NCBI RefSeq assembly: GCF_022701175.1
Contig: NZ_CP078088.1
Location: forward strand, 2,418,001-2,482,000
Length of the DNA stretch: 64,000 nt
Direction of reading: 5' to 3'
Origin: Allobaculum sp. Allo2
GTDB taxonomy: Bacteria > Bacillota_I > Bacilli_A > Erysipelotrichales > Erysipelotrichaceae
Shown here in pieces: positions 20,538 through 64,000 of this stretch; positions within the stretch are counted from its first letter, which is position 1, and each line of letters begins with the position of its first letter. Below the pieces are notes generated by a model, which saw only the letters and a list, made by a program, of their open reading frames with translations, searched no databases and was not told where the DNA came from. The translations under genes and the position numbers were made by a program.

Positions 20538-20542
20538 TTTGT

Positions 20543-20648
20543 CTGGCAGCTTCCTATCTTTGCCTTGCGGCTATTGTCGGCGTTCTGCAGCTTAACGGCT
20601 GTGTGCGAGATGGGAACAGGTGTATCCTGCAGGCTATCGCCACCATAC
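20543..20648 (-). rRNA. rrf: 5S rRNA (type A)
   Basis: The minus strand shows the 5S frame GTGGCGATAGC, CATCTCGCACACAG and GTTAAG. Helix II is closed by two CTGCAG arms. The loop reads TCGCAC where most bacteria have CCGAAC. It is identical to the 5S of operon 2 but very different from that of operon 3. Ends are approximate. Confidence 0.9.
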
Positions 20649-20757
20649 GTAGATTTTTTGAATGGATCTTCCAAAAACAAACATCAGTCTTCCAGCATAA
20701 CGATCTAACGCGATCGTTGGTTTCCATAGTGGCTTCTTGCGTATAGCTTTCTCGAAT

Positions 20758-23630
<2,873 letters not shown>

Positions 23631-23939
23631 CTAGTTCTCTAACTTTGGTTCTAGTTATGCTTGTTTCGAGATTTTTCTATTTCGTAAGAACTGTTCCACT
23701 AACTGTTTCCAACTTTCGGTTAAATCTTTTTACTCTTCAACTTTTCGTTAGACCTTCTGTTATGTCTTCTTACTGATGCTCGTTTTTCAAAGATCCATTC
23801 TTGGAACAAAAGAAAAGATAACTATTTATCCTTCTTTCTGTCCTGGAAGATCGCTCTTCCAAAACCTCACAGACAAATCCTCACTCATTACTCTTTGCCA
23901 TCGGCTTTCGCCTATGGACTTCCTTGTACTTTCTCCTTA
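23631..23939 (-). other. 16S-23S spacer without tRNA genes, operon 1
   Basis: No tRNA-like cloverleaf or CCA end is visible. The spacer is T-rich on the plus strand and nearly identical to that of operon 2; operon 3 lacks about 45 bases of it. Confidence 0.7.
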
Positions 23940-25465
<1,526 letters not shown>

Positions 25466-29849: not shown

Positions 29850-29855
29850 ATTTGT

Positions 29856-29961
29856 CTGGCAGCTTCCTATCTTTGCCTTGCGGCTATTGTCGGCGTTCTG
29901 CAGCTTAACGGCTGTGTGCGAGATGGGAACAGGTGTATCCTGCAGGCTATCGCCACCATAC
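29856..29961 (-). rRNA. rrf: 5S rRNA (type A), operon 2
   Basis: Identical over its length to the 5S of operon 1, including the unusual TCGCAC loop. Confidence 0.9.
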
Positions 29962-30069
29962 TTAGATTTTTGAATGGATCTTCCAAAAACAAACATCAGT
30001 CTTCTAACATAACGATCTAACGCGATCGTTGGTTTCCATAGTGGCTTCTTGCGTATAGCTTTCTCGAAT

Positions 30070-32942
<2,873 letters not shown>

Positions 32943-33251
32943 CTAGTTCTCTAACTTTGGTTCTAGTTATGCTTGTTTCGAGATTTTTCTATTTCGTAAG
33001 AACTGTTCCACTAACTGTTTCCAACTTTCGGTTAAATCTTTATTACTCTTCAACTTTTCGTTAGACCTTCTGTTATGTCTTCTTACTGATGCTCGTTTTT
33101 CAAAGATCCATTCTTTGAACAAAAGGAAAGATAACTATTTATCCTTCTTTCTGTCCTGGAAGATCGCTCTTCCAAAACCTCACAGACAAATCCTCACTCA
33201 TTACTCTTTGCCATCGGCTTTCACCAATGGACTTCCTTGTACTTTCTCCTT
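32943..33251 (-). other. 16S-23S spacer without tRNA genes, operon 2
   Basis: Nearly identical to the spacer of operon 1; no tRNA gene seen. Confidence 0.7.
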
Positions 33252-34778
<1,527 letters not shown>

Positions 34779-34952
34779 GATATTGACTCAAACGCTTATG
34801 CGTTTAATGTTTCGTGAATAAATGATTGCTCGAGTACTTTTTGTGATTTTAAGAATCGACGTTGTGTATTTCAGAATTTCTTGATCTGTCTGTAAAGTTT
34901 TCAAAGAGCCATCTGCTTGTGAGAAACTCGATGCCTCTCACAAGGCTTGTTT

Positions 34953-38354: not shown

Positions 38355-39637
38355 TTAATGGATCAGACGCTCGTAGAAGCTTTTCTGCTGGCGGGCTTCC
38401 TCTTCAAACGCCTTCTGGACCTTCTGGTAAACCGGGTGGTCGAGGACCGGATAGCGCTGCGTGCGAAGCGGGCGGCTTCCGACACGGAAGATGATTTCTT
38501 TTCCGACCGGCATAGAGAGCACGTCTTCCAGCGGCAGATTTGCGCGAATGCTGACGTTTTTGCCGTCTGCAAGTCCATGCCGCCAAGATAGACGTATGTG
38601 TTGCAGTTGTTGATAATCGTCGTCGCATCCTCCCGTCCATACATTTTGTTCAGCTGAGATTCGGACTGCAGAAGAAGGGTAACGGAAATGTTCTTTTCGC
38701 GGAAAACCGAAATCATTTCCGGAAAGTTTTCGATGCAGCCGCCGCTCGCAAAGTCGTCGCAGATCATGTGTACGCCAATCGGCAGACGGCCGGAACCGCA
38801 CGTATCCGCGAAGTGAAACAGCGTACGGAACACCTGGCCGTAAAAGATATTCAAATAATTCTGAAGACCATTGTTTGTGCTCGAAGTGGAAACAAACAGA
38901 ACGGTTTTCTTCCAGCCCATCTCCGCAATATCCAGCCTCTCCTTCTTGCGAAGCAGTTCCCGCATGGATGAAGGAAACAGGCGGTCGATTTTGGAGTTCA
39001 GATCGCTGAAAATACATCCGGCTGTCCGGATCGGCGTACTGACAAACGTTGACCAGCAGCGGGCCTCAAAGCTGTCCGGCGCAATTTCCAGAATTTCCCG
39101 GAATTCCTTATCCACGCTCGTCTGCACCAGATCGCGCGAATAGTCCAGGTGAATGCGGCTGTGAAACTGCAGCACCTCGTCCAGACCGGCTCCCGGATGA
39201 AGGCGGCACACATGCGCAATTTCGGCGCTGAACAGCGAAGCAGCGGCCTGTGCCCAGTATGGATCGGCTTGCGAATACGGATTTTTCTGCCCGTCGCCCA
39301 CGATGAGCGAGGTGGCAAAATACTCGATGTCTTCATCGGACATCATGTAATCGAGCGGATCAAAGCGGACATCCGATCGTTCCGGATCGATGAAATTCAG
39401 ATCAATCACTTTGTAGCCGCGCTCTTCAAACAGACGGCGGTACGTATTGACCAGACGGCGCTTGGTGACGGTAACGACCAGAGACGATTCGGTCGTTTCC
39501 AGCAGGCGCGGTTCGCAGATGGACATCGTTTTTCCGCTCCCGGAAAAGCCGCAGACCATCACGTTGTTGTTGATGCCAGTCAGAGCGCAGTCGCTCGAAT
39601 AAATCGCGCGATCGCCGAGAATGATTTTTTCACTCAT
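38355..39637 (-). CDS. Soluble VirD4/TraG-like coupling ATPase (one frameshift)
   Basis: The protein resembles type IV coupling ATPases: Walker A GFSGSGKT at about residue 31, a Walker B region HMICDDFASGG, then ISVTLLLQSESQLNKMYG and IINNCNTYVYLGGMD, the TraG/VirD4 C-terminal pattern. It has no N-terminal membrane helices, unlike classic VirD4. At about 38573 an A5 run should be A6; restored, the chain continues KNVSIRANLPLEDVLSMPVG and ends at 38355, about 427 residues. It starts four bases after the ClpP-like gene, so the two are one operon. No relaxase, VirB4 or pilus gene is present here. Confidence 0.85.
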
Positions 39638-39641
39638 ACGC

Positions 39642-40229
39642 TTATCCCTCCTGAATCAGTTCTCCCAGCTGTGCCTTTCCATCGCACAGCCCAAAATCGA
39701 TGGCTTCCTGCAAGGTGAAATACCGGTCTTTGGCGGACGCTTCCTCAATTTCCTGCACGCTCTTTTTCGTATGTGCAGCCAGAATTTCATGAATGCGTCC
39801 GGAATAGTCGGCGAGTCTTTTCATGACTTCCTTCAGCGATTCATGGTTTCCCGCAAACGAAGAATTCAGCAGAGGCTCATGAATCATGAGCTGGCTGTCT
39901 TCAAACATCAGACGCTTCGCGCCTGCCGCAAACAGAACGGCAGCCATCGAATAGCCTTTCTGCATGCAGACGGTATGGATGGGTGCCGGACTCGACTGCA
40001 TGGCGTCATAAATCAGCAGGCCGGCCCCAACTTCCCCGCCGGGTGAATTGATATACAGATCAATGGGCTGACTGGGATCTTCCTCATTGAGTGTCAGCAG
40101 CTGCAAGACGATGCTGTTGGCTTTTTCTTCATCCACTTCTCCAAACACCAGGATGCGCCGTCTGGACAGATGCCGGGTTTCCATAGGAATCAGGGTGGTT
40201 CCCTGACAGGTCTTTTCACTCAGATACAT
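39642..40229 (-). CDS. ClpP-like serine protease
   Basis: The 195-residue protein keeps the ClpP triad: Ser in QKGYSMAAVLFAAG, His in LMIHEP, and Asp in AKDRYFTLQEAIDFGLCD. The fold also shows INSPGGEVGAGLLIYDAM. ATG 40229 follows AAAGGAGG. Divergence from housekeeping ClpP and its pairing with a VirD4-like ATPase, with no Clp ATPase nearby, suggest a specialised protease, perhaps acting on substrates handled by the neighbouring ATPase. That partnership is inference. An IS66 element sits 100 bases upstream and may have affected its promoter. Confidence 0.88.
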   Translation of the reverse strand: MYLSEKTCQGTTLIPMETRHLSRRRILVFGEVDEEKANSIVLQLLTLNEEDPSQPIDLYINSPGGEVGAGLLIYDAMQSSPAPIHTVCMQKGYSMAAVLFAAGAKRLMFEDSQLMIHEPLLNSSFAGNHESLKEVMKRLADYSGRIHEILAAHTKKSVQEIEEASAKDRYFTLQEAIDFGLCDGKAQLGELIQEG

Positions 40230-40406: not shown

Positions 40407-40793
40407 ATGGAATCAATCATCCCTGCAATCGATCTCGGTATCGATTTCTCCAAAGTTAAAAACATCTATCTGGCTCAGATGCCTGCTGACCTTCGCAAAG
40501 GAATTGACGGTTACGTCTCCCTGGTTCAAGGACCTCTCGCTCTGGATCCGCTGGATGGATCCCTCTTTCTCTTCGTTAATCGACAGAAGAACAAGATCAA
40601 AGGTATCCTTCGTGACGGAAATGGATTCTGGCTTGTTTATAAGCGACTCTCCAGATCTTCCCTTCAGTGGCCTGTCAGCACTGACCAGTCCGACTTCATG
40701 CGAATTGACTGTTCGCAGCTGGCTTCTCTGCTTTCCGGTCTGTCGATTGTTCCCCAGCCGGCATTTCTGCCACGAACTTATAAGTATGTTTAA
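40407..40793 (+). CDS. tnpB: IS66 accessory protein TnpB
   Basis: The 128-residue protein has the IS66 Orf2 pattern (MPADLRKGIDGYVSLVQ, LDPLDGSLFLFVNRQKNKIK, DGNGFWLVYKRL). ATG 40407 follows AAGGAGG. TnpB is needed for transposition together with TnpC, but its exact role is unknown. Confidence 0.93.
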   Translation: MESIIPAIDLGIDFSKVKNIYLAQMPADLRKGIDGYVSLVQGPLALDPLDGSLFLFVNRQKNKIKGILRDGNGFWLVYKRLSRSSLQWPVSTDQSDFMRIDCSQLASLLSGLSIVPQPAFLPRTYKYV

Positions 40794-40885
40794 ACCAATT
40801 TAAAAGGATGATTTTCTTGAAGGAATATCAAGATAAATCATCTAATTTACTTTATCTATCGCTCTAAATATGTTAAAATTAATAC

Positions 40886-42725
40886 ATGGATGTGCCGAAC
40901 CCTTACCAGACAATCCGCAACGAGCTCCTCGAAGATCTTCATCATCAGATCAGCACCATGACGGAAGAAGAGAAAGACAAATTTATTGAGGATATGTACC
41001 TGGATCTCTATTTCGCTAAAGAAATCAATAAAGCCGTGAAAAGCGGCCGCTTTGGTCCTTCTACGGAAAAGATGGTTCCCTTGAAACTGGATTACTCTGA
41101 AAACGAGGACGGCGGCCCAGATATCAATATTCTGAATAAACAGCTGGCTCAGCTTGATCTGAAAGCCGATGTTTGTTTTAACCGGGCTACGAAATATCAG
41201 GAAGAGGGAGACCGCTATCGTAAAGAAGCTGAAGATTTAAAGCTCAGTTCTGTTGAAGGAAGCAAGAAAAACCTTCCACCAAGTGCAGAAAGCAGGAAGC
41301 GGTCAAAGAAACCACTACCTTCAGTGTAGAAGGGAAAAGCGCATTTGCCCAGTTTGCGGCTGTGAGATGAAAACTGTTGGAATGAAACGTCACTATAGGA
41401 TTCATCGGATTCCCGCTCGCTATAGGCTGGAAGAAGTGCTGCGTGAGACAGTCGCGTGCCCAAACAAGTGTACGGATGAAAACGGGAAAGCCATCATCCG
41501 CACCGCCGAACCTGACGAGCCTGCACTGATCGACAAGAGTGTCGCAACTTCCTCTATGGTCGCGGGAATTGCCTACGATAAGTTCGTAATGGGAACCCCG
41601 GCCTATCGTCAGGAAAAGCACCTGAGTCTCACGGGACTGCCGATCAGCCGTCAGACCATGGGCAACATCCTGGAAAAAACTTACGATCTTTATCTGAAGC
41701 CCCTCGTAAAACAAATGATTGAGGATCTCCCAAACTGTAACGTCGTCCATATGGATGAGACGGTTTTAAAGTGCACGGAGGTTAAAGATCGAAAACAGTC
41801 TTCTATGGTTGTCGCCGTCAGCGGAATCTATGAAGAGAACCAGATGGCTGTCTATAAGTTTTTCCCTTACAAGAAACAGGAGTTCGTAATCGCCCTCCTT
41901 GGCGGTTCTTTTCGTCATGCCCTTATGACAGACGGGCTTTATGCATATGCCAGCTACTATGTCCCCTGCAGAAAGCTCAACTGTATGGCCCATGCGAGAA
42001 GAAAGATCTTCGAAGCCATCAAAGTCCGGTCAGACTTCGCGCAGTATCAGGCAGACGTCCTGAAGTGGGAAAAGACCACACTGGAGAACGACGAAGAGGC
42101 CGCAGAAGCGGCAGCCCAGCTGGACGAAACAGAGAGACCCGAACCAAGTCCGGGTCTCCAGATTCTGCTCACAGCCCTGTCTCTGTTCGGGAAGCTCTAC
42201 CACATCGAATCCCACGTTGCTTCTTACTCGCACGAGGCGAGAACCGAAGTTCGGCAGGAACTTTCAAAGCCCTGCTTTGAAAGACTCACAAGAGTCATGA
42301 TGGAGATTCAGAGTGGATTCGAGGAAAGAAGCACCGCCTACAGAGCAGCCAAGTACTTCATGGATCGAGCGAACTCGTTGGGAAGGTACCTGGAAGACGG
42401 TGATTATCCGATCGACAATAATGTGGCAGAAAGAGCCGTAAAGCCATTCGTGATCAATCGCAAAAACTTCCAGACTACGAAGAGTATCAAAGGTGCGGAA
42501 GTCGTCGCAGCGTTTATGACTTTGTTTCGATCGGCTGAAATGAACGACTTAAATCCAGAGCGCTACATGGAGTACGTTCTGGATGAACTCAAATGGTTCA
42601 AAGACGATGAAATCGCGGTAGATGTATTGAAGTCACTTCTGCCGTATTCAAAGGATTTACCTGAATATCTTCGAATTGGATACCGTGGACCGGATCCGAA
42701 GTATGAAGAAAACGATGAAGAATAA
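40886..42725 (+). CDS. tnpC: IS66-family transposase TnpC (two frameshifts)
   Basis: The N-terminal part is a Glu/Lys-rich helical region from ATG 40886; then a zinc-binding motif (RICPVCGCEMKTVG) and the DDE core follow. The core shows VVHMDETVLKC, ALMTDGLYAYASYY, MAHARRKIFEA and the C-terminal IDNNVAERAVKPFVINRKN. Two single-base losses, one near 41270 and one in an A4 run at 41334-41337 that should be A5, explain the break in the middle. Restored length is about 613 residues, within the range for IS66 transposases. Confidence 0.93.
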
Positions 42726-42973: not shown

Positions 42974-44823
42974 TTACTTGAACGCTTCGACAATTTTTTC
43001 CGGAAGGTTCTCCAGCGTATCGGGCTCGTCCATCGCGCCGGCCGAAAGAAAATACACATAATCGAGATCGCCGGCACGCTCCAGAGCATCCCTCTGAACC
43101 GGTTCTTCCCTTCTGGTGCAGGCATATGGCGAGCAAAGTACATACACCATCCGGCAAAGGCCATGTCCGCGCGCCATCAGCTGATCGATCGTTTTCAGAT
43201 CGGCAGACGATGGCTGGTTTGCCGTATCGATCACGCGTACAAAAACCGAACGAAGACCTTTGATCAGCAGGCAGTCAAATTCGGCCGGTCTGTCCAAAGA
43301 AAGGTTGCCTTCCCGCGATTCAAAGGACATGCCGCCCATAAAATCGTCGTACTTTGAAGTCATGTGCAGATGCGAGACGAGACGGGCACGAAGGATCGCA
43401 ACCGGATTGCTCAGCAGCTGCTTCAGACGGTGCGAGACAAAGCGCAAAGGCGCACCCGCTTCGAGCGGTTTTGTCCATCCGCTCGAAATCAGAAGCCGTT
43501 TCTGAATCAGCCGTTCCAGACACGCCCGGCAGGACGAAACAATCTCAGGCGAATACTGACTTTCCAGACGCGAAAGCTCTTCTTCCAGGTGGCTGGTTTC
43601 CAGATCCAGCGGATCCAGCGCAACCTTCACTTCCCTATTTGCAGCTTTTTCGATCTGAACCGTATGTTCGTCCATGACCAGACGGAAATTCCAGAACAGA
43701 CGCGCAAAGCTTTCCTTCAGATCAAAAGGCGATACTGCGCGAAATTCGAGCGATTCTACGTAGCGGGAATACAGACCGCTCTCTTCTTCAATGAGATGCG
43801 CCTGTTTCAGCGCATCCATAATGCGCTTTAGGGCGGGGCGGCAGGCTTCCGGCAGGGCGTAAACCTGCATTCGCTCATGGGCTGGGGCCAGAGCGTGATC
43901 ATCAAAGACGATTGGCGAAATGTGTACGGAAAGTGCGGAAAGCAGTTCACAGAGCGATGTCCACGCCGCTGGATTTTCGGAATAAATCGCCCACAGCTCT
44001 TCGTCGCCTTCATAGTGCGCAAACGCCGGCTGACCGGTTTTCAGACCCAGCCAGTTCATGACTTCCTCATCCTGCATGCAGGGTCTTTCATTGAGACATT
44101 CCGGCTGGAGAGAATCGCGTTCCGGACAGTCTGAAAGATCCGGATCCAGATTGTCTTCTTGGAGGGACTTTACAGTATTTAAACGATACGCTTTGCCGCT
44201 TTGAACGAGACCTTCCAGCAGGCTTCCTGCCGGTCCGGTTTTCTCAAATCTCTGCACAAACATCCGGGCTAAAACCGAAGGCTTTGAAACGAAGGCTTCT
44301 GCATCGTTTTCGATGCTTCCGCTTTCCTCCGTTTTGTTCCTGTCCGATGCCCGATCGAGAGCTTCATCCGAGCAGTCTGGATTCAGGATATAGACGGGAA
44401 CTTCTCCATCCATTTCGGTTTCGGTGTATACCGGACCGCACCTCGAAGATGAAATGGGCAAAAACGCTGTTGAATCTCCCTCATTCAGAAGTACAAGATC
44501 GATTTGAAGACTTTGATGACGGGTGCGCATCAGGCGGGCAATCTGCACAGCCAGCGCATAGTCCCGTTTCGCCTCTTCCTGATTTTTGGAGCGCAGACCA
44601 TCCGGAGCTGACGGGGTTCAAACGCAAAAAGCGTATGGAGAATATCTTCCACGTACTCCAAACGAAGTTCCATCCAGATCTGATGTTCGCTGCTGAAATC
44701 GAGCAGAAACGGAATTTCATCAATCAGAACTAAATCGTTGATCTTCCAGTCCTTGTAATCGTGACAGGCGGCAAGCGGCCAGAAGCTTTGTTCAAAACGG
44801 TTCAGGATATCGGCTGCACGCAC
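42974..44823 (-). CDS. C-terminal part of the RyR protein, with nuclease-like fold at its end (one frameshift)
   Basis: Two open parts join across an A5 run at about 44588 that should be A6 (CAPKNQEEAKRDYALAVQIARL). The sequence begins ILNRFEQSFWPLAACHDYKDW and is probably continuous with the RyR-domain segment upstream. The middle is helical and acidic. The last 170 residues (SKYDDFMGGMSFES, EFDCLLIKGLRSVFVRVID, IDQLMARGHGLCRMVYVLCS) resemble the PD-(D/E)XK-like domain seen in DUF1887/Card1 proteins, where EVD and a later ExK form the site. Here EFD is kept but the ExK position reads RVID, so catalysis looks lost. This fold assignment is tentative. Confidence 0.5.
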
Positions 44824-44857
44824 GGCTTGCGCCGGATCCAGCTTAGCGAGCGCTTTT

Positions 44858-46352
44858 TCAGGATGCCCGTGTGCTTTTTATACGGCCCGCTGGCTTTCTG
44901 CTCCCCATTCCAGATTTCCAGAACGCAGCTTTTCCAGGCGAAAAACGCCGACCAGACGGTTTCGTTTGCGCGGGCAATCGATTCCAGTTCCTCCAGTCCC
45001 AGAGAAACGGCGTAGCCGAGGCGCGCACGTCTCTGGCTTTTCGCAAATGGTGCTGGTGCACTTCCACCGAGCGTCGATCCAGATCATCCAGTAAAGCCAG
45101 ATGTGCTTCATCGGCCTGATCCCACATGGACCGCTCTTTCCAGATTCCGTTCTGAAGCGTCAGACTGGGCGTGGAATCCACCAGCAGCAGATGGTGCTCG
45201 TGATGGTCGTACGTTCTGCCCGGAATGCAGGCGTCCAGATCATCCAGCCGGCTCCAGCCGCGGCAGAGCTTTTCGACAATCCAGCGGCGATGTTCCGCGC
45301 ACACCAGATTTTGTCTGGCCTGGGCATACACCGGATCCGACAGGCGTTTTCGAAATTCGGAAAGTACGTCCTTCGGATTTTGTAGATCGAGCGTCAGATC
45401 GAATCCCGCCAGCTTTGCGGGAATAGTCATAGCGGTACATAAAGACGAATAGTACGCGTAAGGATCTTCAAATTCGCGTCTGGCAGCTTCCAGATCCGGC
45501 ATGCTCTGGCGCTGCCATAACAGATGGGCATTAAACGCCAGCTCATCGAGCAGCCGGCATAGTTTTTCTTCGTCTTTGGAAAACTCTGCATCCGTTCGGA
45601 TTGGCAAGGCTTCCATACTCGAACATGTAAAATCCGGTTCTTTTTCGTTTTCCTGCCACACAGCCAGCTCGTAGGGGCCCTCAGGAAACTGCTGATGAAA
45701 GCGAATATCGCAAAGGACGTTCTCTTGTGCACACAGATCGCTCAGCGAAGCAGCCAGATTGCGGTTTCTGGTATCCCGTGCGAGCGCAATGAAAACGGAA
45801 TCCGAATGCAGAACGTCTTTTGCAGTCTTCCCGGCAGATCGAACAGCGTATCCCCGATGAAATCGAGGTGCAGAGGATAAAAACGAATGGTTCCATACGA
45901 AGCATTTGCGGGAACGGATTTTTCACGGTTCCAAAAGGCGTTTCGTAAATGAGACCGAAGAAATCCCGAAGACCCGGCCGCCCTTTTACGTACCGTTCAA
46001 ATTCTTCCGGATCTTCGCTGACAATCAGAATTTCTACTGGGTTTTCCTCAAACTGAATCATCTGCAAAAGCAGATCGATAACCAGCTCGCTGAAAATGCC
46101 AAACCCGATCAGCATGACCCGGTTTTCCCGGCGCGTTTTCCCGTTCAATCGGGGATTTTGCCGGCCGACGGGCAGCTCAAACAGATGCGCATGAAGATGG
46201 CGCAGCGGTTCCAGTCCTCTTAAGCGGGAACTCGAAGACGCCTGAAAAAACTGTTCGAGCGAAATGAGCGCGCTCTGCTGCTTTTGCGCCGCGTCATCTG
46301 CCGCACGCGGGATAAGATGGCGTTCAGATCTTCGAGCATCAGTTCCGCGCAA
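44858..46352 (-). CDS. NAD-binding (TrkA-N-like) and ryanodine-receptor (RyR) domain segment (frame-disrupted)
   Basis: A Rossmann-type start is visible in VMLIGFGIFSELVIDLLLQM, with the usual acidic residue later in ILIVSEDPEEFE and a second strand in SVFIALARDTRNRNLAASL. The RyR-like domain follows: LVCAEHRRWIVEKLCRGWSR, YDHHEHHLLLVDST and HLALLDDLDRRSVEVHQHHL. Frames change near 45870, 45800 and 45010, each equal to a lost base (one in an A4 run that should be A5). There is no start codon with a ribosome site between this part and the kinase, so kinase, NAD-binding, RyR and the segment at 42974-44823 are probably one protein of about 1450 residues. Confidence 0.6.
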
Positions 46353-47359
46353 GGATAGCGGCGCGCGCGAGGCGCCAGAGCCCGGCTGATCATCTGCGCA
46401 AGCTGTCGTAAAAGGCGCGATGCATTTTTCAGAGCCGGATCCGCGAAGAGCCGGGAATTTTTCAGTTCGGCATACACCGCACCAAACGTACAGCCTGCCG
46501 GATTTCCATCCGGGGTTCTTCCGTGTTCGCTGTCTTCTTCGGTAAAAATCAGCGCGTTATACAAAATGGCGCCAATCGAATAGAGATCGGTCTGATTGCT
46601 TGGATCTTCCCAAAGCGCTTCGGGTTCCATATAGCCTGGCGTTCCCGTGACAATGAGGCCTGGTTTGTAAACCGAACAGATCGATTCCACATCGTACAGG
46701 CAGACGCCCTGCGAGAGATACGTATCGTTGTGCTTGCGGATGCCGAAGTTGGCCGGTTTGAGATCCCGGTGAACCATTCCGCTTTCGTGAAGCGACTGCA
46801 CGCCGCGCAAAAGCGAACCGATCGCGGTCAGCAGCAGTTCCAGAACTTCACTCGCCGTTTTCGACGACTGACGAATGGAGCGGCAAAGATCCGCGAACGA
46901 AACGACGCGGGCAGCCGGCATCCAGATCCAGAAGCTGCCTTTCTGTCCTTCTTCTTCATAAATTTCGTACAAGGGCAGAAAGTTCGCCAGATCCTGCGAC
47001 TTTCCTTTCTGAAGCGTCTCCCGAAGCAGGAAGTACGGGGCAAGCAGCGGATCGACAAAATCTGCACTCTCGCCCTTTTGTCCGTACTGTTTCAGTACCC
47101 CGCGAAAACTTTCCTCGTGATAAGCTTCGTACACCGTAGAAAAAGCTCCTTCGCCAAGTTTTGAACAAATATGAAAAACCCGGCACAGCCGCTCCTCGCT
47201 CTGTCTGGAATACAGCACCAGCCGGATTTCATTTGGATTTCGAATTTCCATACCCATTCCCGCATTCTTTTTGGTATTCTTTTGGGCCTTCATATCGGCC
47301 TTCTTCTCAGTCAGCTTTTTTCCTTTTCTTTTCAAGTTTCTTTTCAAGTCTTCTCGCAC
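46220..47359 (-). CDS. Eukaryote-like serine/threonine protein kinase domain
   Basis: A lysine-rich N-terminus precedes the kinase core, which might start instead at the ATG around 47245. The glycine loop is KLGEGAFSTVYEA, the catalytic loop HRDLKPANFGI, and the activation segment GTPGYMEPEA. The metal-binding motif is DVE (LYDVESI) in place of DFG; the Asp is kept. No PASTA or membrane part is present, so it differs from PrkC. The C-terminal residues after LEDLNAIL read better in the next frame (DDAAQKQQSALISLEQFFQ), which runs into the NAD-binding segment, so a fusion is likely. A PP2C phosphatase gene lies immediately upstream, the usual antagonist. Confidence 0.85.
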   Translation of the reverse strand: MREDLKRNLKRKGKKLTEKKADMKAQKNTKKNAGMGMEIRNPNEIRLVLYSRQSEERLCRVFHICSKLGEGAFSTVYEAYHEESFRGVLKQYGQKGESADFVDPLLAPYFLLRETLQKGKSQDLANFLPLYEIYEEEGQKGSFWIWMPAARVVSFADLCRSIRQSSKTASEVLELLLTAIGSLLRGVQSLHESGMVHRDLKPANFGIRKHNDTYLSQGVCLYDVESICSVYKPGLIVTGTPGYMEPEALWEDPSNQTDLYSIGAILYNALIFTEEDSEHGRTPDGNPAGCTFGAVYAELKNSRLFADPALKNASRLLRQLAQMISRALAPRARRYPCAELMLEDLNAILSRVRQMTRRKSSRARSFRSNSFFRRLRVPA

Positions 47360-47630: not shown

Positions 47631-48416
47631 CTATTCGATTTCCCGGCCCCGGATAGGCAGCCGCATTTGGGCCGGCGTTTTTATATCGACACAAACCGGC
47701 GTGCCGTCGTGCCGGTCGTATGTTCGATGCCCTTATCCAGTTTTCGAGCTGGAGCGCTAAAAGGAACAGTCGTCCACACCGTTTCCTTTTTCAGATAGCC
47801 CGTAATTCCCTCGAAGTTTTCGGATTCTATGAGCTTTCGAGCCTCGGTTTTCATGCGGTTGCGATCGTACAGTAAAGACCAGGCTCCATCCGAACAAAGC
47901 AGAATTGACGTATACGGCTTGCCGCAGACGTGTCCGATCTGAAGGAGACGCTCGCCATGCACTGTGGTCGATGCGGGTGTTCCGTTTTGCTTCGAAGCCG
48001 GCATGACCAGCAGCCCCCGATCGGTTTCTTCTCCCATCGCCAGGATCATCGCATCGCCAAGCGAGAGATAAAACAGACGATCCGTATCCCGGTCGTATCG
48101 AAGCGCGGCGTATATACACGAATAGTCCTCTACGCTGCATCCGGTTTTTCGGCTTCCAGTCGCTGGGCATTCCACACTTTCTCAAAGATTTTCTGGCGCT
48201 GAAGACCGGCCGGCCGGGTCAGATCCAGATCCATCAGCAGATCGAGCAGCGTGTGCACCGCGATTTTTGCGCCTTTCGCCGCTTTTTACACGTACTGACT
48301 CCGTCCGCCAGTGCCAAAACGACACGATTTTCTTCCACTGCCGCGCCGAGGCAGTCTTCGCAGTCTTTCTTTTCCTGGATATGACGCGTACCGCGATCCG
48401 ACATCCAAAACAGCAT
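47631..48416 (-). CDS. PP2C-family protein phosphatase (frame-disrupted)
   Basis: Such phosphatases remove phosphate from Ser/Thr using two metal ions. ATG 48416 follows GGAGGAAGAAAA. The order of motifs fits: GTRHIQEKKDCED, then VLALADGVST (metal-binding Asp), AAKGAKIAVHTLLDLL, LFYLSLGDAMIL (second Asp) and SILLCSDGAWSLL (third). Three losses are inferred: A runs near 48290 and 48150 that need one more base, and one near 47712, after which the frame ends with HDGTPVCVDIK at 47631. Length is then about 262 residues, normal for stand-alone PP2C. It probably opposes the kinase encoded next. Confidence 0.8.
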
Positions 48417-48634: not shown

Positions 48635-49650
48635 CTAAAGAATCAGGGAGGCGTAGGAGGAGAAGGTCAGCAGGACATCGAACAGATTTTTGCCGCTGAC
48701 GGGCTGGTAGCCGGCGGCGATCAGATACGGATCCGCCTGCTGCTTAAAGGCTTTGAACAGATCTTCGTAGCACGCCCACATATCGGGGAATCGACGGCGT
48801 GCAGATCGTTGAACAAATAGTAGAAGGCACTCAGCAAAACCGTCCGGCTCATCGCCATAAGCTGCGGCACGCTTCTGGGCTCTGGTTTCGGCTCAGCTTC
48901 TTGCGTGTTTGAAGCTTCGGCCTGTTTCTGGGAATCGGCTTGCTTTTTCAAACTGGCCAGTCTGTTTGCTTTCCCGTTTTGTACGGCTGCCTTCGGCAAA
49001 GTTTCTGGTACCGTTATCCCATTGTCCCTGGCCAGAACTCTGGCCAGGTTCAGGATTTCTTTGTCATCCAGATTCTGGTCTGCACACTGATTGCGAACCC
49101 TGGCCACAAAATCCGTCCAGATTTGCATGGGATCTTCCGCATCCGGTTCTTCTTCGGTATCGGACGGATTCAGCGCTTCCAGAAGCACTTCCGGCAAAAG
49201 GTTTTCTTCCTGCTTTCTGAACTGTTTTCCGTCTTTTCCTATAGAAGAGACCAGATTGTTGGCATTGATCAGAAGACGCGCAAACTGTTTGACGTCTTCG
49301 CCCGCAACGCCCAGTTTTTCTTCGAGCAGCCCGATCCCCTCTTTTTGCATGGAGCGTACGTCGGTAAACCACAGACCGCCTTTGCACGTCTGGGCATCCA
49401 CGCCGCGCGCATTGAGCTGATCGAGAATCGCCTGATACTGCGCTCTGGCACTGCGCTGTTCCTGTGCCAGTTCCATGACGGTCGGCGTTCTCCTAGTATC
49501 CGTCAGCGCGTAGATATCGCAGTCGTAGTTTTCGAGAAGAAACGCTTTAAAATCCTCCTCCGACCACGAAAGCGCGTCCTGTCCTTCCAGATTCGAGGCG
49601 AGAGGGCTCTGCCGGACGTAATTTCGATACTGCTGTGTCGGCGTCTCCAT
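48635..49650 (-). CDS. Unknown cytoplasmic protein of the kinase locus (one frameshift)
   Basis: The product is about 338 residues after restoring one C in a C4 run at about 48798, so that it reads HAVDSPDMWACYEDLFKAF and ends FDVLLTFSSYASLIL at 48635. The first 250 residues are polar and mostly helical (YQAILDQLNARGVDAQTCKG, DVKQFARLLINANNLV). An Ala/Glu/Gln-rich linker precedes the helical C-terminus. No known domain was recognised. It starts five bases after the preceding gene's stop, so the two unknown genes form a pair. Confidence 0.7.
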
Positions 49651-49655
49651 AGCTT

Positions 49656-50666
49656 TTACGGACTTTCCGCTCTTACTTTTTCACTGCGGATCGAGTCAAT
49701 CATCTGTTCCGCGCGCTCAATTTTCTGCGCCGGACTCAGATCGTTCTGGCGAAGGTAGTAGAGATAGACCATTTCCGCGAAGTTCTTGTAATTGATGCCG
49801 CGGCCGGTCGGCACATACTCCAGTCCGCCTGCCCGGTTTGTCATGGATTCCGATAAAAAGCGGGTGAGGTTATTGTCGTAGTAGTCCCGGAACAGATTGA
49901 TTTCGATATCGGAATCGTGATCCAGAATTTCAAAGTCCGCCTGATTGTTCGTAAAGTAGCTCATGTTATAGACAATGGCGAAATAGTACAGCATCTGCAC
50001 TGTAACGCCCTGTACGCGAAAACGGCCTCGGGCCAGATCATCGATTTTTCGAAGCAGTCCGTATTTGCCTTTCGGCTTCAGATCCGGCCTGTCTGCAGTG
50101 GCCAGCGGTTCAAAGACATCGTCATCGAGAAAATCCGCACCGTTTTCGAGCGTCATTCTCGGATTGCCGGATTTTTCGCGGACGCAGCTCTGCAGGTAGT
50201 TTTTGCCTCCAAACCCTGCGGATTTTGGAAATCCGCCGTATTTCACAAACTGCCGGAGAATGCGTACCCGAAGCGAATCGTCCTTCCAGGCTGCATCTTC
50301 GGGAAAACTCAGACGGTCCACATCGCGTTTGAGATATTCACTGGGTGTGGCATACGTCTGAAAGCGACGATAGAGACTGTTCAGCATGCTGGCTTCGACA
50401 TCTTCAAACGTTTCCAGCTCGAATGCATACGTGTCGGTAAGGTGAAGATAGTAGTCATTGGACTGATCGGGCAAATACGAAATGCCCAGGCGATCGTAAA
50501 GATCCAGCAGCTTTTTTAAAGCGGACGGCCGCATGGATTCGGTGGCTTTTTCCAAAGCTTTCTGCCGCAGCGTGACAGCCCGTTTTGTATACAGGCCGCT
50601 GAATTCGTCTTCGAGCGAATCCAGCGCCGAAGCCAAGCGTCGGGTAATCGTTCTCTGGCTTTCCAT
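49656..50666 (-). CDS. Unknown 336-residue protein of the kinase locus
   Basis: The frame is intact. The N-terminal third is helical (MESQRTITRRLASALDSLED), the middle contains an aromatic-rich segment (TVQMLYYFAIVYNMSYFT), and the C-terminus shows ADFEILDHDSDIEINLFRDY and GINYKNFAEMVYLYYLRQ. I recall similar phrases in unannotated proteins next to kinases in gut Bacillota but cannot name a family. There is no signal peptide. The upstream gap of 450 bases may contain the promoter for this gene and those following it. Confidence 0.75.
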   Translation of the reverse strand: MESQRTITRRLASALDSLEDEFSGLYTKRAVTLRQKALEKATESMRPSALKKLLDLYDRLGISYLPDQSNDYYLHLTDTYAFELETFEDVEASMLNSLYRRFQTYATPSEYLKRDVDRLSFPEDAAWKDDSLRVRILRQFVKYGGFPKSAGFGGKNYLQSCVREKSGNPRMTLENGADFLDDDVFEPLATADRPDLKPKGKYGLLRKIDDLARGRFRVQGVTVQMLYYFAIVYNMSYFTNNQADFEILDHDSDIEINLFRDYYDNNLTRFLSESMTNRAGGLEYVPTGRGINYKNFAEMVYLYYLRQNDLSPAQKIERAEQMIDSIRSEKVRAESP

Positions 50667-60446: not shown

Positions 60447-60451
60447 TTTTG

Positions 60452-60557
60452 TTCGGCAACTACTTATCTTTGCCTTGTGGCTATTGTCAGCGCAAGATGG
60501 CTTAGCTTCCATGTTCGGGATGTAAATGGGCGTATCCCATCCGCTATCGTCACCGTA
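60452..60557 (-). rRNA. rrf: 5S rRNA (type B, divergent), operon 3
   Basis: The core is canonical (CATCCCGAACATGGAAGCTAAG), with helix II closed by GGATGG and CCATCT. It differs from the type A copies at roughly a third of positions, with compensating changes in the stem, while the 3' quarter (GACAATAGCC, AAGGCAAAGATA) is nearly shared. Ends approximate. Confidence 0.88.
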
Positions 60558-60670
60558 CTTTTAAAGTTTATCAAATGGATCTTCCAAAAACAAACATCAG
60601 TCTTCCAGCATAACGATCTAACGCGATCGTTGGTTTCCATAGTGGCTTCTTGCGTATAGCTTTCTCGAAT

Positions 60671-63543
<2,873 letters not shown>

Positions 63544-63813
63544 TCTAGTTCTCTAACTTTGGTTCTAGTTATGCTTGTTTCGAGATTTTTCTATTTCGTA
63601 AGAACTGTTCCACTAACTGTTTCCAACTTTCGGTTAAATCTTTATTACTCTTCAACTTTTCGTTAGACCTTCTGTTATGTCTTCTTACTGATGCTCGTTT
63701 TTCAAAGATCCATTCTCTGGAAGATCGCTCCTCCAAAACCTCACAGACAAATCCTCACTCATTACTCTTTGCCATCGGCTTTCACCAATGGACTTCCTTG
63801 TACTTTCTCCTTA
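63544..63813 (-). other. 16S-23S spacer, operon 3, with deletion
   Basis: About 45 bases present in operons 1 and 2 (the block around GATAACTATTTATCC) are missing near 63715. No tRNA gene. Confidence 0.7.

Positions 63814-64000
<187 letters not shown>

Follow-up and report, generated by a model that had tools for sequence, protein, structure and literature searches.

Within the window, by which we mean the entire 64,000-nucleotide stretch analysed here, a gene for a ClpP-type serine peptidase is located four bases upstream of a gene for a VirD4/TrwB-type ATPase, both on the minus strand. The four-base gap, already read in the preliminary description, is confirmed. The host genome belongs to the Allobaculum group and comprises 2.73 Mb in one contig, with an estimated completeness of 58%. 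Upstream of ClpP, between the pair and a kinase module, sits an IS66-type element which is missing from the locus of A. mucilyticum. The features are:

38355 to 38570, minus strand: actual C-terminus of the ATPase, read in the frame of ORF 38355-39017
38363 to 39637, minus strand: soluble VirD4/TrwB-type ATPase (PF02534, 121 bits), frameshifted in this assembly beyond about residue 361
39642 to 40229, minus strand: ClpP-type serine peptidase, 195 aa (PF00574, 151 bits), triad S94-H117-D168
40407 to 42725, plus strand: IS66-type element with a tnpB-like (40407-40793) and a tnpC-like gene (41253-42725), read from the sequence
42974 to 47359, minus strand: C14, a multidomain kinase protein of about 1340 aa in frame-broken pieces (Pkinase, 67 bits; the C14 profile matches five ORFs of the window)
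47681 to 48185, minus strand: PP2C-type phosphatase with a broken frame (PF13672, 24.9 bits)
48721 to 50666, minus strand: C15, a protein of about 590 aa split into two halves by a frame break (C15 profile, 316 and 66 bits)

The window also holds three minus-strand rRNA operons in a span of 44 kb (20541-25464, 29854-34779 and 60451-64000).

The reading frame of the ATPase breaks near 38565 at a run of five A, in what looks like a one-base indel. The annotated C-terminus is out of frame after about residue 361, i.e. over the last 60 or so residues. The real C-terminus, NVSIRANLPLEDVLSMPVGKEIIFRVG..., is in the frame of the overlapping ORF 38355-39017, and the C-terminal NVSIRANLPLEDVLSMPVGKEIIFRVGSRPLRTQRYPVL aligns with NISTRANLPLEDVLALPVGAEIVCRIGRRPLKTKRYPIL of A. 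mucilyticum. The break probably is an assembly error because the assembly is rich in indels; the genes for ClpB, a prophage ClpP, the kinase protein and C15 are split as well. A pseudogene would be the residual alternative.

The window ClpP matched PF00574 with 151 bits, far above the gathering score of 20.2, and stayed below the housekeeping ClpP equivalog TIGR00493 (129 bits vs 308.6). As stated in the preliminary description the catalytic triad is intact, with S94, H117 and D168 all present. Across the family of paired ClpPs, the Ser and the His are retained in 76/76 and the Asp in 74/76 proteins, the two exceptions carrying an Asn (L118 and L121). In a phylogenetic tree most paired ClpPs formed clade I (70 rows, support 100/98) beside canonical ClpP; a smaller clade II fell separately. 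The paired ClpPs are distinct from the housekeeping ClpP. The residues of the docking pocket, compared by eye, are variable, and so they are in canonical ClpPs. One paired-type ClpP, on contig 13 of genome G128 (L200), is unlinked, i.e. without an ATPase; by eye, the adjoining gene pair resembles an AbiEii-type nucleotidyltransferase system.

For the ATPase, coupling-protein motifs without a membrane anchor had been described, and this held. The window protein matches PF02534 with 121 bits and carries a Walker A (GFSGSGKT) and a Walker B motif (CDDF), with about 30 residues ahead of Walker A. The ATPases of such pairs (here termed dyad ATPases) start about 33 residues (median) before Walker A, the maximum 19-residue hydropathy has a median of 1.22, and no N-terminal anchor or transmembrane segment was found across the subfamily. 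The cut-off of the NCBIfam model for CD1115-family VirD4 proteins (NF045973, 250 bits) was not reached, neither by the frame-truncated window ATPase (237.6 bits) nor by an intact relative (L110, 248.2 bits). Proteins that database records place near this cut-off as 'VirD4-like conjugal transfer protein, CD1115 family' may therefore be misnamed. Walker B reads DDF in 40/40 dyad ATPases vs DEF in 37/37 conjugative ATPases. At residue 295 (window numbering) the Walker-B Glu, which is invariant in conjugative relatives, is replaced by an equally invariant Asp; this exchange could slow hydrolysis. In a tree all paired ATPases formed one clade (support 100/98) apart from 38 conjugative CD1115-type proteins, with the same split into I and II as in the ClpP tree. 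An AF2 model built for the A. mucilyticum orthologue (pLDDT 89) matched TrwB residues 106-500 with a Z-score of 29.3 over 358 residues, and Helicobacter Cagbeta with a Z-score of 28.4, followed by DndH, DotL, VirB4 and HerA. The model contains the TrwB-like nucleotide-binding domain plus the all-alpha domain. From these fold matches, together with the missing membrane segment, the dyad ATPase is a VirD4-class motor minus the membrane part.

We examined whether the pair exists in other genomes, as the preliminary description had proposed. The searches used the ATPase alone and adjacency of a ClpP was asked afterwards, thus the test of linkage was not circular. Among 316 genomes of the order, 12 loci formed a distinct ATPase group, whose open frames mostly span 419-465 aa. 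A ClpP gene was adjacent or one small gene away on the same strand in 10 of the 12; the two exceptions (G128b and G135b) are second ATPase copies in genomes already carrying a pair. A scan of bacterial and archaeal genome contigs with the ATPase profile A5 yielded 80 loci, from Clostridia and relatives. In 75 of them a ClpP was present within 2.5 kb, always co-directional, upstream of the ATPase in 68 and downstream in 7. For 42 of these 68 the gap was at most 20 bp or the genes overlapped (median 8.5 bp). Three of the five loci without a ClpP are at contig ends, the other two (L134 and L158) have no adjacent ClpP. In an even sample of 299 Lachnospiraceae genomes, picked by neither motif nor ClpP, all 22 ATPases (19 genomes) had a ClpP within 1.5 kb. 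Among conjugative VirD4 relatives a ClpP neighbour was seen in none of 73 fetched loci, some of which repeat between searches, and in none of 4 in the Lachnospiraceae sample. ATPase and ClpP co-diverge (Mantel r 0.86, null maximum 0.25; 0.81 within clade I). A first scan of genome contigs with ClpP alone detected no relative, nor did a search of viral contigs. Sampling GTDB Bacillota at class and phylum level brought no further dyad-type member, thus the wider spread is in Clostridia and relatives. These data support that the pairing is conserved across Firmicutes and separate from conjugation. A further lineage was observed in G135 (C85) and G128 (C36): at these two loci (L318 and L319) a canonical-like ClpP is accompanied by a soluble VirD4-like protein of 569-575 aa with a Walker-B EE motif, with a short ORF between them.

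Does this ClpP have another unfoldase? It had been noted that no Clp ATPase partner is encoded nearby. In fact, a profile search of the whole 58%-complete window genome detected no Clp unfoldase besides a ClpB, which reads in two frames. Several assemblies of the group are incomplete and therefore the argument rests on the closed A. mucilyticum genome (G001). There and in six relatives profile searches found no ClpX over the cut-off, no ClpA and no ClpC, only ClpB. The ClpB of the window group (TIGR03346, >1130 bits in three scanned genomes) is without the [LIVMF]GF docking tripeptide. Thus, a housekeeping ClpX/ClpP pair, which would have spoken against a dedicated arrangement, was not found in the window group. 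The paired ClpP is the sole ClpP in G004, G120, G143 and G145. No housekeeping ClpP could be detected in the window genome (G000), in G001 or in related Erysipelotrichaceae, and several relatives (G002, G003, G034, G057) show no ClpP at all. Extra Allobaculum ClpPs were considered as housekeeping enzymes and rejected; those examined were prophage head-maturation proteases. In each of 14 Clostridia hosts a strong canonical ClpP is present besides the paired one, and because these hosts retain a housekeeping ClpP, ClpX or ClpC could in principle engage the second ClpP as well.

The 'kinase genes' next to the pair are fragments of a single protein of about 1340 aa with an N-terminal kinase, which is intact in A. 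mucilyticum (G001, locus L109). Its homologue at L119 ends in a Card1-like nuclease domain (PF09002, 26.1 bits, narrowly missing the cut-off of 26.4). The PP2C phosphatase likewise is intact in A. mucilyticum and L119 (75 bits in the latter), and C15 is also present beside the pair in L119, L123, L150, L177 and A. mucilyticum. The order C15, PP2C, kinase, ClpP, ATPase is shared by the window group, L119 and L123; in A. mucilyticum a TIR-NACHT-TPR gene is inserted between kinase and pair, and a kinase tail is also upstream of the pair in L116. L120, L122 and L123 represent one syntenic site. L123 has the module there, L120 lacks it and L122 keeps only a remnant of it with an RyR domain (RyR, 120 bits); the pair is found in all three. 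The kinase/RyR module is thus a recurrent but optional neighbour. The link to the kinase locus that had been proposed for the window stands insofar as pair and kinase/RyR genes do occur together in some loci with the same gene order (L119, L123 and A. mucilyticum); it is not essential (L120, L122), and the module is absent from most loci.

Comparison of the loci demonstrated that the pair stays constant while its neighbours vary. A protein of about 220 aa, C3, is encoded just upstream of the pair in about 11 loci. Its model matched type III secretion chaperones and YbjN (ExsC, VecA, CesT, YbjN; probability 1.0). Most of these proteins terminate in a DLFxxxGG-type tail, which is conserved and possibly a degron or a docking motif. 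In L110, L111, L113, L118, L121, L125, L133 and L135 this YbjN/secretion-chaperone-fold protein lies upstream of ClpP, and its C-terminus is disordered. An unrelated protein, C6, takes the same upstream slot in 7 loci. In genome G090 ThiF/E1-JAB, kinase-like, PP2C-like and vWA-like genes are near the pair; the adjoining stretch (L036:12518-15532) encodes a JAB-ThiF fusion, a possibly E2-like protein of 197 aa and a tandem of two nearly identical 112-aa ORFs, possibly a ubiquitin-like conjugation coupled to the protease. Type III-B CRISPR genes were seen beside the dyad only at two sites in unrelated hosts, and not in the window. At L124 (Synergistaceae) Cmr5, Cmr6, Cas6 and CARF-RelE genes adjoin the pair, and a degenerate CRISPR array, missed by the exact-repeat scan of the loci, ends 128 bp before ClpP. 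On contig 29 of G799 (L320, L321) RT-Cas1, Cas6, Cmr1, Cas10, Cmr3, Cmr4 and CorA are followed by the ATPase, a second soluble VirD4-like protein, ClpP and a CARF-PDDEXK nuclease. Two CRISPR loci in more than 100 are suggestive of an immune role of the pair. Most immediate neighbours match no defence model.

On balance we lean towards the reading that the pair is a dedicated ATP-dependent protease in which the VirD4-type motor feeds ClpP. In favour of it are the conserved co-directional linkage, missing in conjugative relatives, the co-divergence and common I/II split of the two proteins, the retained ClpP triad, the soluble VirD4 fold with its DDF signature, the chaperone fold of C3, the further ClpP/VirD4-like array and the lack of a detectable alternative unfoldase in the window group. 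VirD4-class motors are hexameric rings, and some of them, such as Cagbeta and DotL, recruit protein substrates via small chaperones. Without the anchor that aims it at a secretion channel, the VirD4/TrwB-type ATPase would form a cytosolic ring motor, dock to ClpP and feed protein into its chamber, in the place held elsewhere by ClpX, ClpC or ClpA. The loss of the anchor together with the tight linkage to ClpP would most simply mean that a motor once directed at a secretion channel was turned towards a protease chamber. Substrates may be brought by the exchangeable neighbours, i.e. C3 with its chaperone/YbjN fold, C6, the kinase-phosphatase module or the type III CRISPR modules, with the chaperone-fold or other neighbours acting as adaptors; the pair would therefore probably be an effector, under regulation, of conflict or stress responses. 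Speaking against a dedicated protease are the ATPases without an adjacent ClpP, namely the paralogues G128b and G135b and the contig loci L134 and L158, as well as the Asp in place of the Walker-B Glu in all dyad ATPases. The wider proposal of a new class of ATP-dependent protease, in which a translocase of the VirD4/FtsK-HerA clade feeds ClpP, secretion-chaperone-like adaptors pick the substrates and the whole serves as an exchangeable immune effector, including for type III CRISPR, is plausible and we put it forward tentatively.

VirD4/HerA motors more often move DNA, which counts against protein feeding. The main rival, to which we assign a minor share of the probability, is a HerA-like DNA motor; on sensing or translocating invading DNA it would switch on a bound ClpP, which degrades host or phage proteins. 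It draws on the analogy to HerA rings that activate SIR2 or DUF4297 enzymes, on the VirD4 relatives being mostly DNA coupling proteins and on the defence-type neighbours, i.e. TIR-NACHT, E1/JAB, the Card1-like nuclease and the two type III-B CRISPR loci. It also draws on HerA, SIR2-HerA and DUF4297-HerA appearing among the Foldseek/VIA matches, ranked below VirD4. Against it, the solved structures nearest in fold belong to VirD4-class coupling proteins, and some of these (Cagbeta, DotL) handle protein. The secretion-chaperone-fold genes upstream likewise suggest a protein cargo, and neither the window ATPase nor its ClpP had a PADLOC match at E 0.01. Rather improbable to us is that the genes are merely co-transcribed and functionally separate, ClpP working with housekeeping Clp ATPases or alone and the ATPase doing something else. 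The Clostridia hosts with their housekeeping ClpP, the few ATPases without an adjacent ClpP and the single unlinked ClpP in G128 would agree with this; the linkage of 22/22 and 75/80 with co-divergence would not, nor would the retention of the pair in window-group genomes without detected ClpX, ClpA or ClpC, or the similar pairing in the further VirD4/ClpP lineage.

The neighbourhood suggests another alternative, that the pair belongs solely to the kinase/PP2C/RyR/nuclease system and processes its substrates. The gene order common to the window group, L119 and L123 and the kinase tail in L116 are in line with this, but most loci are without the kinase module and at the one syntenic site the pair is retained where the module is absent (L120) or reduced (L122). 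We regard this as very unlikely. Finally, resemblance of the ATPase sequence to CD1115-family VirD4 could mark the pair as a remnant of a conjugative element, a degenerate VirD4 with ClpP as a passenger. The preliminary description had found no relaxase in the window; a search for PF03432 had no match in the whole window genome (58% complete) or in A. mucilyticum. Other hosts had their nearest relaxase tens of kb off or on another contig, except for a weak 25-bit match 8 kb away from the pair in G796. In plasmid and phage collections no subfamily member was among the matches listed, only conjugative VirD4 at about 30% identity. The pair therefore is not confined to ordinary conjugative elements, and by this relaxase search no conjugative element was seen at it. 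The active-site residues are also under conservation. The remnant reading is already contradicted and we give it hardly any weight.

How does a motor feeding ClpP compare with established systems? ClpXP, ClpCP and ClpAP are alike in that a ClpP peptidase with an intact triad and a ring ATPase are encoded together; here, the motor is VirD4/TrwB-type instead of an AAA+ Clp unfoldase, the ClpP forms a separate clade and no ClpX, ClpA or ClpC was found in the window group. With the VirD4/TrwB/CD1115 coupling proteins (NF045973) the ATPase shares the fold, Walker A and the all-alpha domain and scores 237-248 bits with the CD1115 model; unlike these it is anchorless, about 420 instead of 585-680 aa long, has DDF in place of DEF, stays under the family cut-off and has a ClpP next door but no relaxase or conjugative neighbours. 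HerA-effector defence systems (SIR2-HerA, DUF4297-HerA, HerA-NurA) also combine a ring motor of the FtsK-HerA/VirD4 class with an adjacent effector enzyme, often in a defence context; here, the effector is a ClpP peptidase, the motor is nearer to VirD4 than to HerA and PADLOC gave no match. CagZ with Cagbeta and IcmSW with DotL, coupling complexes of type IV secretion systems, exemplify VirD4 motors which handle protein with the help of small partner proteins, as may be the case for the pair; the dyad motor, however, is predicted to be cytosolic and its partner is a protease, not a secretion channel. Proteolysis as an immune output is known from CalpL and SAVED-CHAT, protease effectors of type III CRISPR (PMC11229360), and two dyad sites abut type III-B CRISPR (L124, L320/L321), yet no CARF or SAVED sensor was matched in the pair itself and most dyad loci have no nearby CRISPR genes.

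A literature search found no description of a pair of ClpP and a VirD4-type ATPase in the publications that could be searched. To our knowledge, all ClpP machines characterised so far rely on an AAA+ unfoldase, and all VirD4 proteins characterised so far work for a secretion channel. Each part is from a known family; the machine, if real, is not. Of the new arrangement suggested in the preliminary description, the stable pairing stands, conserved apart from conjugation and kept where no ClpX, ClpA or ClpC was found; that the motor feeds ClpP we infer. Many gut bacteria carry this unit of ClpP and a VirD4-type motor, sometimes beside antiviral systems. If the reading as a dedicated protease is true, the cytosolic pair would constitute a secretion motor rewired into a protease. 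It would explain how genomes without ClpX or ClpC keep a ClpP, and proteolysis would join the toolbox of several defence islands.
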